The notes beneath the pieces were generated by a model. It did no database searches, was not told where the DNA came from, and saw only the letters and a list, made by a program, of their open reading frames with translations. From the NCBI GenBank assembly GCA_031267295.1, contig JAIRZI010000071.1, forward strand, positions 1 to 32,535: a DNA stretch of 32,535 nucleotides. The letters are read 5' to 3'. Origin of the DNA: Propionibacteriaceae bacterium. Its GTDB lineage: Bacteria; Actinomycetota; Actinomycetes; Propionibacteriales; Propionibacteriaceae. The position numbers and the translations under genes were made by a program. Below, in pieces: positions 749-22,202 of the stretch (position 1 is the first letter of the stretch; every line of letters begins with the position of its first letter).

Positions 749-1180
749 TTAACCAGCGTCCCCATAAGGATTCACTATACGTAACCCAACTCCGACGAAA
801 TCTTTCACATTCCTTGTTGCCAAAGTAGCTTTTGCACAAAATGCGATGGCTGCTATCTGTGCGTCAAGCACAGCGATAGGCAACCCTTTTCGACGGCGGG
901 CATCCATGATGAGTGCATACCTATCGGCAGCGGCATTATTGAAAGGGAGCGTGTATTCGCTCATACCAGATACGAAAGCTGCAACAGCATTGGCAAGCAT
1001 TGTTTTGCGGTGTCCATCTGGAAGCCTATGAACCCCCGCTGAAATCTCGGCCCGAGTTACCGCAGTTATATAAATCTGAGTGGGCGATGTCGCGGCGAGC
1101 CACTCGGAAAGCAGCAAAAAATCGTGATGAACTTCACCTTGCAGGAGCACCGATGCGATGTTTGTGTCGCAGACGATCAT
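749..1180 (-). CDS. vapC: PIN-domain toxin, FitB/VapC family
   Basis: The 143-residue product is a typical PIN-domain ribonuclease, the toxin half of a type II toxin-antitoxin system. The acidic residues expected of the metal-dependent active site are visible: D5 in MIVCDTN, E45 in VTRAEIS, D106 in VLDAQIA and D127 in TRNVKDF. The C-terminal LRIVNPYG resembles the NPW-type ending of FitB proteins. Family members cleave RNA (often tRNA or mRNA) and are silenced by the partner antitoxin. The start ATG overlaps the antitoxin stop by four bases (ATGA), a usual sign of translational coupling. All key residues are present, so the toxin is probably intact. The RNA target cannot be predicted. Confidence 0.88.
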   Translation of the reverse strand: MIVCDTNIASVLLQGEVHHDFLLLSEWLAATSPTQIYITAVTRAEISAGVHRLPDGHRKTMLANAVAAFVSGMSEYTLPFNNAAADRYALIMDARRRKGLPIAVLDAQIAAIAFCAKATLATRNVKDFVGVGLRIVNPYGDAG

Positions 1181-1422
1181 GTGTGGAAGATTTCTCGCTC
1201 ATATTCGGGGAGAGACATAGGTATGTCGAACTGTTCTTCCCCCTTAAAGAACGCATGTGCTTCAGCCATGACGGCAGTTAATCCGCGCGGCTCAGAATCC
1301 GTCACTGCTTCTAGAATTGCCCGGATTTCAGCTTCCATAGAGCGACCGTGCGCCAGCGCCCGATGTCGCACACGATTCTTTGCTTCATTCGACAAGTTAC
1401 GAATTGTGATAACACTAGCCAC
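1177..1422 (-). CDS. vapB: FitA-like ribbon-helix-helix antitoxin
   Basis: I place the start at a GTG at 1422, giving an 81-residue protein that begins MASVITIRNLSNEAKNRV and continues HGRSMEAEIR. That is the FitA-type ribbon-helix-helix DNA-binding domain followed by a short C-terminal tail that would wrap the toxin. A strong ribosome-binding site (GAGGAGG, six bases before the GTG) decides this start. The ORF track's ATG at 1554 adds 44 residues of basic, non-family sequence and has no such site. In this family the antitoxin binds the toxin and, with it, represses its own promoter. It is the first gene of the pair and is translationally coupled to the toxin. Confidence 0.87.
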   Translation of the reverse strand: MASVITIRNLSNEAKNRVRHRALAHGRSMEAEIRAILEAVTDSEPRGLTAVMAEAHAFFKGEEQFDIPMSLPEYEREIFHT

Positions 1423-1470
1423 CGTAACCCTCCTCTTTGCACGAACCATGTTATCACGACATTTAATTAG

Positions 1471-1488
1471 TGCATTCATTGCATTCAC
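1471..1488 (-). promoter_or_regulatory. 9-bp direct repeat upstream of antitoxin gene
   Basis: On the plus strand TGCATTCAT is followed immediately by TGCATTCAC, a tandem 9-base repeat about 50 bases upstream of the antitoxin start. Position and repetition make it a candidate autoregulatory operator for the ribbon-helix-helix protein. FitA-type operators are usually inverted repeats, so this is a weak guess. Confidence 0.2.
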
Positions 1489-14140: not shown

Positions 14141-14280
14141 GCTACTACACGTCACTACACCGCACCGCCGCTACACCCCCCACAACGACAGAGAAACTTA
14201 GACACGCTACTACACGTCGCTACACCGCACCGCCGCTACACCCCCCACAACGACAGAGAAACTTAGATACGCTACTGTGC
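14141..14280. repeat. 65-bp tandem duplication reaching uppP stop codon
   Basis: A 65-base unit starting GCTACTACACGTC is present twice (14141-14205 and 14206-14270) with only two or so base differences. A third copy starts at 14271 but breaks off after GCTACT. The unit includes CAACGACAGAGAAACTTAGAC, which is the same phrase that follows the core in R1. The start of the third copy contains the CTA that is the uppP stop codon on the minus strand. Confidence 0.8.
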
Positions 14281-15114
14281 AGTTATTACTCTAACTAACA
14301 ACATCATGGCTACAGCGCAACCAGCGCAAACCCGATATAGCACAAATCCAGTGAACCGATTCGATGCCACAAACTTCAATAACCAAGCGATACTGACGTA
14401 GGCCACCACAAAACTCACCGCCGTAGCTACTCCGGTTTGCAACCAACCGACACCGGCACTGATCTCATCCGCAGCCTTGAACGCTTGCAGCACACCGGAA
14501 GCAGTGAGCGCGGGGATACCTAAGAAGAAACTCCACCGGGTTGCCGTGGGACGGTCGATACCTCGGAAAAGTCCAGCTGAGATGGTGGCACCCGAACGAG
14601 ACACTCCTGGTATCAACGCGATGCACTGCGCTAAACCGATCAGCAATCCATCCAGTATCCCCAACGAACTCTCACTACGTAGTTCAGCACGAGAAGCTGT
14701 GTACCTATCAGCGAACCACATCACCACACTCCAAGCTAGCAGCGCCCCAGCAACCACCCATAGGCTACGCAGTGTGGTTTCGATGTACTGCTCAAATAGC
14801 AGCCCAACAACACCAATCGGCACCGAACCGATGATGACCGCCCAACCTAAACGGTAATCGTCATCACGTTTATTCTGATGAAACAAACCTTTGCACCAAC
14901 CAAGCGCAAGCCTAATGATGTCGGCACGGAAGTAGACGATAGCCGCCAGAATCGCCCCCACCTGAATAATGGCGGTGAACGCAGTCACATCCGGGGCATC
15001 AAGTGATAGCCCGAGTAGCTTCTCGGCGACGCTGAGATGTCCAGTGCTCGACACCGGCAGAAACTCGGTGATTCCCTCTACTACGCCAAGAATAATCACT
15101 GCCAACCAACCCAT
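14272..15114 (-). CDS. uppP: Undecaprenyl-diphosphate phosphatase (BacA type)
   Basis: The 280-residue integral membrane protein removes a phosphate from undecaprenyl diphosphate, recycling the lipid carrier for peptidoglycan synthesis; extra copies give bacitracin resistance. The two signature regions are present: EGITEFLPVSSTGH at residues 13-26 and PGVSRSGATIS at 169-179. Length and about eight hydrophobic segments match the family. A good ribosome-binding site (AGGGGAG, four bases before ATG) supports the start. The stop codon lies in the first bases of the repeat array, so the last residues may have been altered by repeat insertion. It is transcribed in the same direction as the beta-propeller gene upstream, 147 bases apart. 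Confidence 0.97.
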   Translation of the reverse strand: MGWLAVIILGVVEGITEFLPVSSTGHLSVAEKLLGLSLDAPDVTAFTAIIQVGAILAAIVYFRADIIRLALGWCKGLFHQNKRDDDYRLGWAVIIGSVPIGVVGLLFEQYIETTLRSLWVVAGALLAWSVVMWFADRYTASRAELRSESSLGILDGLLIGLAQCIALIPGVSRSGATISAGLFRGIDRPTATRWSFFLGIPALTASGVLQAFKAADEISAGVGWLQTGVATAVSFVVAYVSIAWLLKFVASNRFTGFVLYRVCAGCAVAMMLLVRVITAQ

Positions 15115-15261: not shown

Positions 15262-17403
15262 TCAGTTCACTTCCACAGTGGCAAGCGTATCGAAGTTGTC
15301 AGTAGTGAACACCTTGAGCGTTATGCCGTCATACAGATACAACTCTTGCTCAATGAGCATTCCACGTATCCGATAGGATTCAGGAGGGAGCGGAATACTG
15401 GCAACTAGCTCAAAAATGCCCGTGTCACGATAAACCAGATACGCAGCGTCGGTGGAAAAATCTGCACCCCCCTTATCGGAGTAACTGATCGCTGGAAAAG
15501 CTACTAGCCTAAGCATTTCGTCTGCCAGCACAGCATGATGGTCATACCCTGCCTCGGAGTAGTCGCAGTTAAGTAACAGCGCCTGTAACTCACTAACTGC
15601 AAACGGGTCGCTGATGTCAAAAACCGAAAGTTTCATGCCCCGGGTGATGCCATTCGCGTCACCTTGAAAACCTAAACCAAGCAGACGATCAACACCCCAG
15701 GGATGCAGATACGAACTGAACCCGCTCAACTGTAGTTCACTAGTAACATGCGGATTAGCCGGATTGGCAAGATCAACTACGAACAGCGGGTCTGTTTGCC
15801 GGAACGTCACCACATAGCCGACAGCTCCGACGAAACGCACCGACTGCACCGACTCATCAGCGATGAGCGGATCAATCGAACCGATGATCACTAGGTCAGG
15901 GTTCAGCACATACAGCGCCGAGTTGGCGCTCCAATCCGCCCCTTCGGTAGTGGTGGCTATCCGCAGATTACCCTGATACTCATCAAGCGCGAACTGCCCC
16001 ATCACCACACCGGGAACTTTGCCGTGCGCCGCAATATCAAGAAAGCCGTCTAAAAGGCTTATCCGCACTAGGTTGGTTTCAGGAGAGTTCGTTTGAAAAA
16101 TAACCCGGCTAGTTTTCGGCGTAGCAGTAACAGCAGTATCTACCGTAGTCGGCTGCGGAATAGCTGTTTCGGCAATTTCCGGTTGATCAATTATTGATGT
16201 AGGGGGGACAGCAGTAGCGATCGCGGTCGGCTGCGCAGTAGCCGTTTCAACGAACCCCTGCTGATCAATCACCATCACATATGTGCTGCCAGCGAAGTAG
16301 AGATTCTCAGTACTCATATAGGTGGTATCACTAGCACCGAGCACCGCTTTCTGGTCAATACGGGTGCCTTTAGCCATATCAATAGAACTGACGATCACAT
16401 ATCCGGGGTTGCTGGGTCCAGGGCAGATACCAATATCATTTGGGGATATAGCCCGAACATCACCAGCTACAGTTATGAGCGGCGCAAACGTGGTTGGGGT
16501 GTTAGCCAGCACATCATCCACCGGAACAACAAGGTAGTAGTTGCTCACCAGATATAACACGCCGTCACTCAATCTAGCTGCATTGAAACTTCCACTTTGC
16601 CCCAGACTGGTAGTGAACTGCGGATATGCAGGATCGCTCACGTCGTAGAGCAACGCTTCGGTGAAACACTCCTGTGGCGCCCAAATCTCAACGCCGAATT
16701 CGTTATTCGACGGCTTACTGGAAGTGCAGCGATCGACGATGACAGCCAAAGTGTCATCGTAGAGCAGCATATCGAGTGGCCATAAGGTGGATTCTGTATT
16801 GGTTCCACCATCCATCTCGGGCAGAGAGAATCGGGCAATTTCGCGAGTGGTAGCACCTTCAGGAGCCAACACCACCACCTCGGCATAGGTGAGAATATAG
16901 ATCGCATCGCCGTCGGCTTTTATGATGTCAGCTTCGTCGATTCCCGCAACCTGCACATTAGTGCCACTGCTGTCACGTCCTACACCCTGTTCCGGCGAGT
17001 TGCCAGCGCCCGGGACACCCGATCCCGGCACACTTACATCGACGGTAAAATCACCTGTTTCAGCAACACTGTTGAGCAAAATTGTTATTGTTTGGTACAG
17101 ATCGTGGTAATCATCAGCCACTTGGTTAATGAAGCTGGTGGGCAGAATCGGTGTCAGTTTACCCCAGTACGCTCTGGTACCCAGCAACCCCGCTACTAAC
17201 AAACTCACGGTGCATATCCCCACCGCTAATAGCACCGCCACCCTGCTGTTTCGTGGCTTAGTGATGCCCGGTGGCGCAATATCTTCCTCCCCGGGTGGCC
17301 GCCAAACGATACTGGTTTGGGCACTGAGCGCCGCCAGCAACTCGTCACTTGGCTTCATCTGTTCCACCATATCGGCGAAAATGTCCCCAATTCCTTTATT
17401 CAT
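15262..17403 (-). CDS. Membrane-anchored beta-propeller domain protein
   Basis: The 713-residue product has a cytosolic N-terminus of about 53 residues ending in KPRNSR, one membrane segment (about residues 54-75) and a large extracytoplasmic part. The phrase TNVQVAGIDEADIIKADGDA is the hallmark of the secreted beta-propeller family described from archaea and bacteria (Pfam Beta_propel). The positive charges before the membrane segment indicate an N-in orientation. An insert near the middle is a Thr/Pro/Ala-rich stretch with repeated ETAxxQPT and TAVxxTP phrases. The ATG overlaps the end of the ECF sigma gene by eight bases, the typical place of an anti-sigma factor. No zinc-type anti-sigma motif (HxxxCxxC) is seen in the N-terminal part, so that role is an inference from context. 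Function of this family is unknown. Confidence 0.85.
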   Translation of the reverse strand: MNKGIGDIFADMVEQMKPSDELLAALSAQTSIVWRPPGEEDIAPPGITKPRNSRVAVLLAVGICTVSLLVAGLLGTRAYWGKLTPILPTSFINQVADDYHDLYQTITILLNSVAETGDFTVDVSVPGSGVPGAGNSPEQGVGRDSSGTNVQVAGIDEADIIKADGDAIYILTYAEVVVLAPEGATTREIARFSLPEMDGGTNTESTLWPLDMLLYDDTLAVIVDRCTSSKPSNNEFGVEIWAPQECFTEALLYDVSDPAYPQFTTSLGQSGSFNAARLSDGVLYLVSNYYLVVPVDDVLANTPTTFAPLITVAGDVRAISPNDIGICPGPSNPGYVIVSSIDMAKGTRIDQKAVLGASDTTYMSTENLYFAGSTYVMVIDQQGFVETATAQPTAIATAVPPTSIIDQPEIAETAIPQPTTVDTAVTATPKTSRVIFQTNSPETNLVRISLLDGFLDIAAHGKVPGVVMGQFALDEYQGNLRIATTTEGADWSANSALYVLNPDLVIIGSIDPLIADESVQSVRFVGAVGYVVTFRQTDPLFVVDLANPANPHVTSELQLSGFSSYLHPWGVDRLLGLGFQGDANGITRGMKLSVFDISDPFAVSELQALLLNCDYSEAGYDHHAVLADEMLRLVAFPAISYSDKGGADFSTDAAYLVYRDTGIFELVASIPLPPESYRIRGMLIEQELYLYDGITLKVFTTDNFDTLATVEVN

Positions 17404-17974
17404 CGAACATTCCTCCCAGCATTGTGTCGCGCATCATGTTCCGGGCGCGCGAGAGGCGCATCTTTACCGCCCCCTCAGCTAGCTCTAAAACTTGCGCTAT
17501 CTGCGCTATCGGCAGATTCTCAAAGTAGAACAGATGCAGCACGCTGCGGTATTGTTCCGGCAGTTCAGCTAGCGCCGCAAACACCGCGTCCTGCATCTCG
17601 GTACGGAAGGAAAACACCGCGGGGGCCAACCGGTCAGCGTCCTCAGGTCTCAGGGGAACGACCCGAGTACGCCATGATGTCGATGCCTGGTGCCGCGCAC
17701 AGTTCAACGTAGCCGTAATGAACCATGCTTTGCACTGTTGTTCAGTGCCGAACACCGGATGACGGCGGTGGTACGCCAGAAACACGTCCTGGAACACATC
17801 ATCTGCATCGCCAACGCAGCGGGTATGCGTGAGTGCGATGCGATAGACCAGTCCTTGATAACGAGCGATCACCTCATCGGTTGTGAGATCAGCTATAGAT
17901 GCCGAGTCATACTCGCTGAACTCTTGAGCAGCATCAGTTACAGCTTTATCTGCTGTTTCTGGTACTCCTCGCAT
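17396..17974 (-). CDS. ECF-type RNA polymerase sigma factor
   Basis: The 192-residue product has region 2 (about residues 35-105, with GDADDVFQDVFLAYHRR and WFITATLNCARH) and region 4 (about 130-185, with LPEQYRSVLHLFYFENLPIA and a helix-turn-helix ending AVKMRLSRARNMMR). There is no region 1.1 or 3, so it is an extracytoplasmic-function sigma factor. I use the ATG at 17974, which has a GAGGGGG stretch just upstream; the track's start 37 codons earlier reads through sequence with no family match. Its stop overlaps the start of the membrane beta-propeller gene, so the two are made together. Its target promoters are unknown. It is divergent from the copper transporter gene. Confidence 0.92.
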   Translation of the reverse strand: MRGVPETADKAVTDAAQEFSEYDSASIADLTTDEVIARYQGLVYRIALTHTRCVGDADDVFQDVFLAYHRRHPVFGTEQQCKAWFITATLNCARHQASTSWRTRVVPLRPEDADRLAPAVFSFRTEMQDAVFAALAELPEQYRSVLHLFYFENLPIAQIAQVLELAEGAVKMRLSRARNMMRDTMLGGMFDE

Positions 17975-18085
17975 GGAACCCCCTCGGTGTAATCCTTCCA
18001 TATAAGAATGCTGCGAACCGGTAAAAAGGTAACAACGAGTTTGTAGCGCAGGGAAAAACTCATAGGTTACTCTAATCAAAGTCAT

Positions 18086-18247: not shown

Positions 18248-19669
18248 ATGAGCACAGCCCATAAACAGCCGCTACTGCGCGTCGTGCCGATAGTTGGTAT
18301 GACTTGCGGAAACTGTGAGGCTTTAGTAGGGCGCGAACTGCGTAAACTGTCCGCCGTGCAGCAAGTCAAGGTGTCGGCACGCACTGGCACCGCGGAAATG
18401 ATGCTGCGCTTTCCGGTAGCTGACACCGCCATAGCGGCAGCTATTGAACGCGCTGGGTACCAGCTAGGAACCGGGGAGCCGCGCACTTGGTTCACAACAA
18501 ATCCTATCGTCTGGCGTGACGTAGCGCTTGGCATCGCTATAGTTGCGACGCTGCTGCTAGTATTCGTAACCACTGGCCTATATAACAAAATTGGAACATT
18601 ATCGGCAGCTTTCACCGGTGACAATCTGGGAATGGTTGTGATTTTAGGAGTGGCGGCCAGTCTATCGAGCTGCATGGCGCTGACTGGTGGCTTGGTTATG
18701 TCGCTGTCCGCCAGATTCTCAGCCACCCATCCGAACACCTCAGTAATCGGACGGATTCGACCACAGTTGTGGTTCAATGTGGCACGCATTATCGGATTCA
18801 CGGTATTGGGGGCGCTGCTCGGCGTGGTGGGGAGCCTGTTTCGCTTCACTTCCGAACTGAGCGCCGTGCTGATGATCGTTGCCGCGCTGGTTATGGGAGT
18901 ACTTGGGGTGTCATTAAGCGGCATATCTCCAAAGTTGTCCAGTGCCAGCTTCCACTTACCGGGAAAGTTCGGGGAATGGCTCAGCGGAACGGCTACAAAC
19001 ACCACCGCCGGTTACACCGACTGGCATACCATTGTCCTTGGGGTGGCAAGTTTTCTGTTACCGTGCGGGTTCACGCAAGCGGTGCAGGTGTACGCCGCAT
19101 CCACCGGCTCTCCCGGGCGTGCCGGGTTAATCATGGGGTTGTTCGCACTCGGCACTGCACCTGGACTGTTGACGGTAGGAACGCTTGCTTCCTTGGCTAA
19201 AGGCAAGTTCGCTACCCACAGTTATCGAGTGCTCGGAGTAATCGTCATCGCATTCGCCGCCTTGAACCTAACCAGCGCAGCATCGACAATATTCAACAGA
19301 TTCGAGCCAGCTACGTTAATTAACTCTAACGAGACGTTGACTAGCAACGTCACTCTTAGCGACGGAGTGCAACTCGTGAGCACCAAAGTACAAAACGGTT
19401 ACTCCCCCACAATCAGCAACATTTACGCAGATATGCCGGTAAAGTGGACGCTCAGCGCACCTTATCTCGGCTGCGATTCCTGGTTAGATTTGTCGAGTCT
19501 CGGGCTGGGAAGACTCATGTTGGAACCCAACAAACCGATGGATGTGGAGTTCACCATAACTGAACCGGGGGACATCCAGTTCGGTTGCGCTATGGGAATG
19601 TATCACGGATATTTTCACGTCATTCCACAACCCATAACACCTCAGCCGGGTGAAAAGTCGGAGCGCTAA
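18248..19669 (+). CDS. HMA - TauE/SafE transporter - cupredoxin fusion
   Basis: The 473-residue product joins three modules. Residues 10-75 are a heavy-metal-associated domain with the GMTCGNC metal site (C20, C23). Residues about 90-345 are a polytopic membrane domain of the TauE/SafE-like (DsbD-related, COG2836) type, including PCGFTQAVQVYAAS. Residues about 360-465 form a C-terminal cupredoxin-like domain with FGCAMGMYHGYFHV, whose Cys, Met and His are the expected copper ligands. Such fusions are thought to move or sequester copper across the membrane. The gene is followed by copA, supporting a copper role. No ribosome-binding site is visible; a GATAAT five bases upstream suggests a leaderless transcript. 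The direction of transport and the exact cargo are inferred. Confidence 0.88.
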   Translation: MSTAHKQPLLRVVPIVGMTCGNCEALVGRELRKLSAVQQVKVSARTGTAEMMLRFPVADTAIAAAIERAGYQLGTGEPRTWFTTNPIVWRDVALGIAIVATLLLVFVTTGLYNKIGTLSAAFTGDNLGMVVILGVAASLSSCMALTGGLVMSLSARFSATHPNTSVIGRIRPQLWFNVARIIGFTVLGALLGVVGSLFRFTSELSAVLMIVAALVMGVLGVSLSGISPKLSSASFHLPGKFGEWLSGTATNTTAGYTDWHTIVLGVASFLLPCGFTQAVQVYAASTGSPGRAGLIMGLFALGTAPGLLTVGTLASLAKGKFATHSYRVLGVIVIAFAALNLTSAASTIFNRFEPATLINSNETLTSNVTLSDGVQLVSTKVQNGYSPTISNIYADMPVKWTLSAPYLGCDSWLDLSSLGLGRLMLEPNKPMDVEFTITEPGDIQFGCAMGMYHGYFHVIPQPITPQPGEKSER

Positions 19670-19772
19670 CCCAGCTAAACAACAAAAAAGGGATGATATT
19701 CGGGCGTTGCGATGTTTTAACCAGTAGCGCATAGCTGATAAGTTTCCCAGCAGGTCAAGAAGGAGAAATCTC

Positions 19773-22202
19773 GTGAGCCTACCTAGCAACCCAGCAGCGA
19801 CGACAACAGCAACGTCAACTACCACTTTGGACGCTCAACTTCCGCACGAAGTGAACGTATGCACCACCACTATCCCGGTGGGCGGAATGACTTGCGCATC
19901 TTGCGTTAAACATGTAGAAAAAGCGGTGGGGCGAGTTCCGGGGGTTTCCAGCGTGATGGTGAACCTGGCGAGCGAGAAAGCCACCATTTCTTATGACGGA
20001 GCTTCACAAACGATGGCTAGTATCCGTGACGCCATTACGCGAGCGGGTTATCAGCCTGGTGAAGAACCGAGCGGCGACCCAGTGGACGAAGATCGGTTGC
20101 GCAAGCGGCGCGAAATTCGAGTGCTCTGGACAAAGTTCGTAGTGGCGGCAGTATTAACTGTTCCGTTGCTGTATATCGCTATGGGTCCAATGCTGGGTTT
20201 GGGGTTGCCGTTGCCGGAAGCGTTGCATCCGATGAAACACCCACTCGCCTATGCGTTAGCGGAGTTAGCGCTAGTACTGCCAGTGATCGCAGTGGGGTAC
20301 CGGTTTTATGTGGTGGGGTATGCGGCGCTGGCTAGACGTAGCCCCAATATGGATTCACTGATCGCAGTAGGAACGAGCGCCGCTTTCGGGTATAGCTGTT
20401 ACAACGTATGGCGCATCTCCGCCGGAGATATGGCCGCAGTAGATGCACTGTATTTTGAAACTGCCGGAGTGATAATCACCCTAATTTTGCTTGGTAAATC
20501 ATTGGAAGCATTGACGAAAGGCCGCACCAGTGACGCGATCAAAAAACTACTGGGGTTGACCCCGAAAACGGCGTTTATCATAAAAAATGATGTTGAACTG
20601 GAGGTACCACTTGCCCAAGTGCAAGTCGGCGACCTAGTGCTCGTCAAACCCGGAGCAAACATCCCGGTTGACGGAGTGGTAGTAAACGGACACAGTTCCG
20701 TAGATGAATCAATGCTGACTGGGGAATCATTACCTGTGGATAAACTCCCTGGCAACCAAGTGTTTGCCGCGACCAGCAACACCACTGGAGCGTTAACTTT
20801 CCGAGCGGAGAAAGTAGGCGCAGACACCGCTTTAGCTCAAATTGTGCAACTCGTCGAAACTGCGCAAGGATCAAAAGCCCCTATAGCGGCGCTTGCAGAC
20901 AAAGTAGCTGGGGTGTTCGTACCTATCGTATTCGCAACTGCGCTGCTTGCCTCAGTGACTTGGTTGCTAGCCGGCTATGACATGCAATTTGCGCTCACTA
21001 TCTTCGTGAGTGTGTTAGTCATCGCCTGCCCGTGCGCCCTCGGCTTAGCTACCCCTGTCGCCATCATGGTAGGTACCGGCAAAGGCGCAGAACACGGCAT
21101 CCTCATCAAATCTGCGGCTGCCATAGAAGCTGCGCACACGGTGGATACTGTGGTTTTTGATAAGACGGGAACGATCACCGCCGGTAAACCAAGCGTTACC
21201 GATATTGTGTTAGCAGACGGTGCCGTGCTCCCGCTGGACCGTCTCGAAGTTACGGTAGGAAAACACAGCACTGCGCTTACACAACAAACTTCGTTTGAAC
21301 TACTGCGGCTAGCCGCCAGCGCAGAACAGAACTCAGAGCATCCGCTAGGACAAGCTATTGTAAAAACCGCTAAGGATTATGGGTTGGAACTCAGCGTAGC
21401 GGAATCTTTCGACTCGCTAACCGGTCGCGGAGTGGAAGCGACGGTTGCTGGCCGTCAGGTGTTGGTAGGCAATCCGGCACTGTTGGACGAACGGAAAGTT
21501 TTTTACAGCGAATTAGCTGAGGCCGCTACCAACTGCGCGAAAGACGGCAAAACACCAATGTATGTCGCCATTGACTCACAGGTGGCGGGCATTATCGCAG
21601 TAGCGGACGTTGTCAAGCCGTCTAGCCGAGAAGCTATCGCGCTGCTTAAAAAATCTGGAGTGCGCGTAGTCATGGTGACCGGCGACAACAAGCTCACCGC
21701 CGCAAGCGTGGCACGACAAACCGGGGTGGACGAAGTGCTAGCAGAGGTGCTCCCACAAGACAAAGCTGCCGAAATCTCAAAACTACAAACAACCGGACAT
21801 AAAGTTGCGATGGTAGGCGACGGCATCAACGACGCACCAGCACTCACCCAAGCCGATGTCGGAATCGCCATCGGAAGCGGTACCGACATCGCCATTGAGA
21901 GCGCCGATATTGTACTGCTGCGCCCAGAACTCACCGCAGTGGCCGATGCCATCCAACTATCTCAGCAAACCATCCGCAATGTAAAACAGAATCTCGGCTG
22001 GGCTTTCGGCTACAACATCATCGGCATACCCATAGCGGCAGGAGTGCTCGCCACCTTTGGCGGCCCACTACTGAACCCCATCTTTGCGGCCGCCGCAATG
22101 AGCCTAAGTTCAGTTTCAGTACTCCTGAATGCACTGCGTTTAAAACGCTTACGTTTAAGAAACGAAGTTTCCGTGCCCCTCAAGCCGCCCAGCGGTGCCT
22201 AA
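19773..22202 (+). CDS. copA: Cu(I)-exporting P1B-type ATPase
   Basis: The 809-residue product pumps cuprous ions out of the cytosol at the cost of ATP. One N-terminal metal-binding domain carries GMTCASC (C41, C44). Further landmarks are TGES (from about T316), the membrane CPC site (C419-C421), the phosphorylation motif DKTGT (D463), SEHPLGQAI for nucleotide binding and GDGINDAP (from about G682). GYNIIGIP and [15 protein letters not shown] in the last two membrane segments provide the YN and MxxSS residues of the Cu(I)-specific P1B-1 subgroup. It starts at a GTG with AAGGAG seven bases upstream. It lies 103 bases after the HMA-TauE/SafE-cupredoxin gene, the likely functional partner. No CsoR or CueR regulator is in the window. 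Confidence 0.96.

Follow-up and report, generated by a model that had tools for sequence, protein, structure and literature searches.

A short cytosolic module tied to an ECF sigma factor precedes an exported PF09826 beta-propeller in Propionibacteriaceae: a putative membrane anti-sigma system

The analysed window is the whole 32,535-nucleotide stretch of contig JAIRZI010000071.1 from a Propionibacteriaceae bacterium, and all coordinates refer to it. On its minus strand, an open reading frame for an ECF sigma factor runs from an ATG at 17974 to a TAA at 17396. It is followed by a second open reading frame, with its ATG at 17403 and its final base at 15262, which encodes a 713-aa protein carrying a beta-propeller. 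The features of this operon are the following:

18007..18034, minus strand: predicted autoregulatory ECF promoter (-35 at 18034-18025, -10 near 18011-18006), reading TGTTACCTTT-N13-GCATT, an element conserved in relatives
17396..17974, minus strand: ECF sigma factor of 192 aa (Pfam, TIGR02937, Shine-Dalgarno sequence)
17396..17403, minus strand: 8-bp overlap of sigma stop and propeller start, ATGAATAA (ORF coordinates, relatives)
17242..17403, minus strand: predicted cytosolic N-terminal module, residues 1-54, putative anti-sigma domain (conserved motif, predicted helices)
17179..17241, minus strand: single predicted transmembrane (TM) helix, about residues 55-75 (hydropathy; AlphaFold2 helix 57-75)
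15262..16968, minus strand: predicted extracellular PF09826 beta-propeller, residues 146-713, putative sensor (PF09826 E = 1e-121; AlphaFold2)

The sigma factor matches Sigma70_r2 (E = 1e-8), Sigma70_r4_2 (E = 3e-15) and TIGR02937. It consists of regions 2 and 4 only, joined by a short linker in the Pfam analysis, as in ECF (group 4) sigma factors. The best Foldseek matches were likewise ECF sigma factors, and SigL was the closest PDB sequence. A Shine-Dalgarno sequence (GAGGGGG) is found 5' of the ATG. An alternative, longer in-frame start exists at 18085, but an open reading frame beginning there would enclose the promoter, which makes 17974 the probable start. The 8-bp overlap with the propeller gene is kept identically in most relatives, group-A Clostridia included. 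Since the propeller gene is the single PF09826 gene of the window genome (a 1.69-Mb assembly in 97 contigs) and the junction recurs across the family, the arrangement reflects more than chance. The gene uppP/BacA (undecaprenyl-diphosphatase, 14272-15114) lies immediately downstream on the same strand; this and other downstream genes were rejected as parts of the system because they are not conserved beside the operon in relatives. The divergent upstream genes (18248-22202) have a copper-handling look from their translations only, with a heavy-metal-binding membrane protein and a P-type ATPase.

The PF09826 match of the second protein is nearly full-length (residues 146-703, covering model positions 2-494 of 495), and no further Pfam match was found in this protein beyond the propeller. 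A hydrophobic helix was detected by hydropathy at about residues 55-75, preceded by K/R/R. We infer that the N-terminus lies inside the cell and the propeller outside. The N-terminal module carries the motif DIFxxMxxQMxPSxELLxxL, and residues 1-54 gave no match in a Pfam profile search that included RsgI_N. In the full-length AlphaFold2 model, two N-terminal helices (5-15 and 20-28) were predicted with modest confidence (pLDDT about 60-70), and the propeller was all-beta with pLDDT mostly about 90. Class I anti-sigma domains (ASDs) often carry a zinc HxxxCxxC motif; the 54 N-terminal residues contain neither His nor Cys and therefore no zinc motif. A sequence-only reading of this DNA had described an ECF sigma gene joined by an 8-base overlap to a gene for a protein with about 53 cytosolic residues, one membrane helix, a large outer propeller and no zinc-type anti-sigma motif, and this description was borne out. 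We also modelled the sigma factor and the N-terminus as one joined chain with AlphaFold2. To obtain this chain, the two frames were merged at the 8-bp overlap by translating four letters, ATGT, as a single M, purely for modelling and with no implication of frameshifting. The resulting model had a pTM of 0.45 and N-terminal helices at pLDDT ~65-70, from an alignment without homologous N-terminus rows. No solved-structure relative of PF09826 was detectable by sequence. Foldseek searches with the propeller returned only low-TM, generic propellers (DDB1, IFT-A), which therefore give no ligand clue.

PF09826 is present in 46 of 199 genomes of the family Propionibacteriaceae. Of these 46, 42 could be tested for pairing, the others having the gene at contig ends (G439, G490, G507) or broken (G358). 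A sigma gene lies directly upstream of the propeller gene in 40 of the 42, with a sigma of the window type in 39 and one from another ECF clade in the last (G435, locus L054). In two genomes (G506, G517) the propeller gene is split across contigs, with the sigma gene and the propeller N-terminus at the contig end. The two genomes without pairing, G492 (L309) and G505 (L301), carry propellers that have neither an upstream sigma gene nor the N-terminal motif and whose TM helix begins about 12-22 residues in; L301 retains the promoter despite the loss of the sigma gene. Within the family type, sigma and propeller distances correlate with r = 0.70, a value reached in 0 of 2,000 permutations, which still includes the shared species history.

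The reverse search, for the window's sigma type across the family genomes, revealed two further kinds of partner. In G514 (L302, 2298-3179, minus strand), a second window-type sigma has a partner that keeps the N-terminus (MDDKIFRTMADKMGPSREVHDRLL) and the TM helix, followed by a discoidin/CBM-like ectodomain with weak Pfam matches below the cut-off. In G005, which belongs to the window's own genus (L303, about 1170-1480, plus strand), the partner of a window-type sigma is a protein of ~104 aa, made of the same N-terminus, the TM helix and only about 25 extracellular residues. Because the module is kept in L302 and L303 and is lost together with the sigma gene in L301 and L309, the N-terminal module travels with the sigma factor and the ectodomain is exchangeable. 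The reverse search thus gives the strongest evidence that residues 1-54 would form the sigma-facing part of the protein.

We then considered PF09826 genes beyond the family. Among 80 named loci, 25 are paired with a sigma gene, 2 of them from actinobacterial MAGs and 23 from Bacillota, almost exclusively gut-type Clostridia. This is a pattern-chosen, size-limited, non-random sample whose paired fractions are not rates, for Clostridia included. The Bacilli, archaea and others sampled among these loci have no adjacent sigma gene. Few pairs were found in other Actinomycetota (L015, L023, L041, L186, L203, and L193 indirectly). Most PF09826 members elsewhere in this phylum are unpaired and carry signal peptides or lipoboxes, so pairing is not a general trait of PF09826. 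The sequence-only reading had proposed pairing across Actinobacteria as a check and had named a lack of co-occurrence as a refuting result. Pairing in the family excludes that outcome and passes the check strongly; across Actinobacteria, the expectation held for the family and a few other lineages, but not for most members elsewhere. In all, the sigma/propeller pairing recurs in gut and environmental bacteria.

The length of sequence preceding the TM helix separates the two groups without overlap, with a median of about 55 residues in paired propellers (all at least 28, n = 56) and about 6 in unpaired ones (n = 47), as measured from the hydropathy maximum with a crude choice of start in a named, non-random sample. 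Every unpaired propeller of that sample has an ordinary signal sequence. In a tree with some weak supports, the paired sigmas fall into several clades with unpaired ECF sigmas between them, and other ECF groups are paired with the propeller in gut Clostridia and other Actinomycetota. As the paired sigmas belong to different ECF groups, the propeller was likely recruited to ECF sigmas repeatedly. Adjacency alone is no proof, given the arrangement of the actinobacterial locus L193, in which an ECF sigma gene is followed by another reading frame (MTDVIHHLREL...) and then by a propeller gene whose product carries an ordinary signal peptide; this is possibly a split version of the sigma/propeller system. 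That the two genes are unrelated and share a neighbourhood by chance or passively could be argued from the many PF09826 genes with no adjacent sigma (most of those elsewhere in Actinomycetota, all sampled Bacilli and archaea). The pairing counts obtained for the family already refute this explanation, and with the conserved overlap, the concordant loss, the module swapping and the recurrence with different ECF clades set against it, it is hardly credible.

Upstream of the sigma gene, the element TGTTACCTTT-N13-GGAGTTA is found in more than 30 related genomes, and operon promoters score 20-38 bits, versus at most 6 in shuffled sequence. The presence of this sigma-specific promoter before the sigma gene suggests that the operon is autoregulated, the sigma factor itself acting there. 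In the window genome, the only exact match is the operon promoter. With one mismatch allowed, matches in the 199 genomes lie almost only at the sigma operon and the reversed control gave none. With two mismatches, the 43 propeller-bearing genomes show few off-operon sites, versus a similar count of control matches. Off-operon sites of the window genome, each with two mismatches, were chance-like and were rejected as targets. The operon being the chief detectable target of the motif, the propeller could merely be its main product, with the N-terminus a plain membrane anchor and the sigma factor controlled otherwise. We consider this very unlikely, since the helical motif before the TM helix is kept where the ectodomain is swapped or lost and is gone where the sigma gene is gone.

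Some sites occur ahead of other exported proteins. In two genomes of different genera (G491, G506), the promoter element lies about 100 bp 5' of a serpin lipoprotein gene; the serpin-linked sites are at L255 (site 1251), L257 (minus strand, about 200 bp before the serpin match) and L298. A universal role of the serpin as target was rejected, as the promoter is missing from most serpin genes of propeller-bearing genomes and present at two. The serpin hints, on the basis of these two genomes, at proteases. In G027, three sites (L183, L241, L243) precede exported or membrane proteins, and the small proteins behind them gave no clear Pfam families. Clostridial pairs have promoter elements of their own, TGAAACC..GTGTTAT-like in the relatives of the window sigma and TGCAACA..CACTCTAATA-like in a second Clostridial group, both read by eye.

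Known systems offer several points of comparison. CnrY of Cupriavidus metallidurans, a class II ECF anti-sigma factor and partner of CnrH, has a two-helix cytosolic N-terminus and one TM helix (PMC4598750, PMC7406223). The window protein shows this layout in its predicted helices 5-15 and 20-28 (pLDDT about 60-70) followed by the TM helix at 57-75, and has an ECF partner, a likeness in architecture; unlike it, CnrY lacks a large sensor ectodomain, metal being sensed by CnrX. Class I (ASDI/ZAS) anti-sigma domains have three to four helices and average about 101 aa (PMC7406223), whereas the window protein has 54 residues and two predicted helices there. In the SigI/RsgI systems of Clostridium thermocellum, an intracellular sigma-binding N-terminus and a TM segment are combined with an exchangeable outer sensor (CBM, GH10, PA14, others) (PMC12203970). 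The window protein would share this order of an intracellular sigma-facing domain, a TM helix and an exchangeable extracellular sensor, but its partner is an ECF sigma factor, which SigI is not, its sensor is PF09826, RsgI_N is absent in the Pfam search, and no autocleaving periplasmic domain was identified. The exported domain of RsiV, the ECF anti-sigma factor of SigV in Bacillus subtilis, is a lysozyme receptor that triggers proteolysis (PMC4598750); the propeller may similarly act as receptor, although the ectodomain is different, the only Pfam match of the window protein being the propeller. ECF57 sigma factors also associate with propeller-type repeats, as WD40-like C-terminal extensions (PMC8999054), but these are fused to the sigma factor itself, whereas here they belong to a separate membrane protein. 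The PF09826 proteins without sigma partners (Bacilli, archaea, other Actinomycetota) share the propeller and its export, but have a signal peptide, a lipobox or a short anchor, and neither a cytosolic module nor a neighbouring sigma gene was found for them.

Taken together, the protein is most likely, by analogy, a membrane anti-sigma factor that combines a CnrY-like two-helix cytosolic domain with an outer sensor open to exchange, in the manner of RsgI. We give a probability of roughly 85% to a bicistronic, autoregulated transmembrane module of this kind. Its inner end very probably keeps the sigma factor off, sequestering it at the membrane, and the propeller is the probable sensor of a signal from outside the cell or from the envelope. 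Regulated proteolysis would be the likely way in which the sigma factor is set free, after which it would transcribe the operon that encodes it and, in certain species, genes for exported proteins, the serpin among them. The sequence-only reading, with the propeller as sensor and the short N-terminus holding the sigma factor, thus gains support from comparative genomics, in which the module follows the sigma factor and not the propeller.

The inhibitory direction is suggested by architecture and by known membrane regulators. FecR-type regulators are membrane partners needed for sigma activity. By such precedents, the N-terminus could bind the sigma factor while the membrane protein acts as a positive partner or tether and not as an inhibitor; the comparative evidence points to a sigma-linked module and is neutral on the sign of regulation. 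We regard a positive role as improbable, because short cytosolic helices, one TM helix, an exported sensor, a shared operon and an autoregulated promoter form a common negative layout. The anti-sigma reading would assign a function to PF09826, a large uncharacterised secreted family, in several lineages, and would extend ECF signalling by another sensor fold and by an anti-sigma module of very small size. No description of PF09826 as an anti-sigma factor was found in the open-access literature, a scope that does not extend to the tables of the main ECF classifications. Since the promoter is defined and a candidate target is named, the signal, the binding and the regulon are directly testable. 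As a tentative and rather doubtful extension, PF09826 may have been captured several times and independently, in Actinomycetota and gut Clostridia, as the sensor ectodomain of short two-helix ECF anti-sigma factors; with the sensor as the sigma's main target in the family and the serpin as an extra one, the signal would be extracellular proteolysis and the response a self-contained sensing and inhibition of proteases.

A separate observation concerns three loci (L306, 912-1724; L307, 2412-3251, minus strand; L308, 629-1687) in which another ECF type is accompanied by a membrane protein whose sequence begins with (M)KNDQIIAAWDTVNPDAGTRTRML. The ectodomain of these partners had no significant Pfam match, and the arrangement resembles a further anti-sigma system of the short kind.
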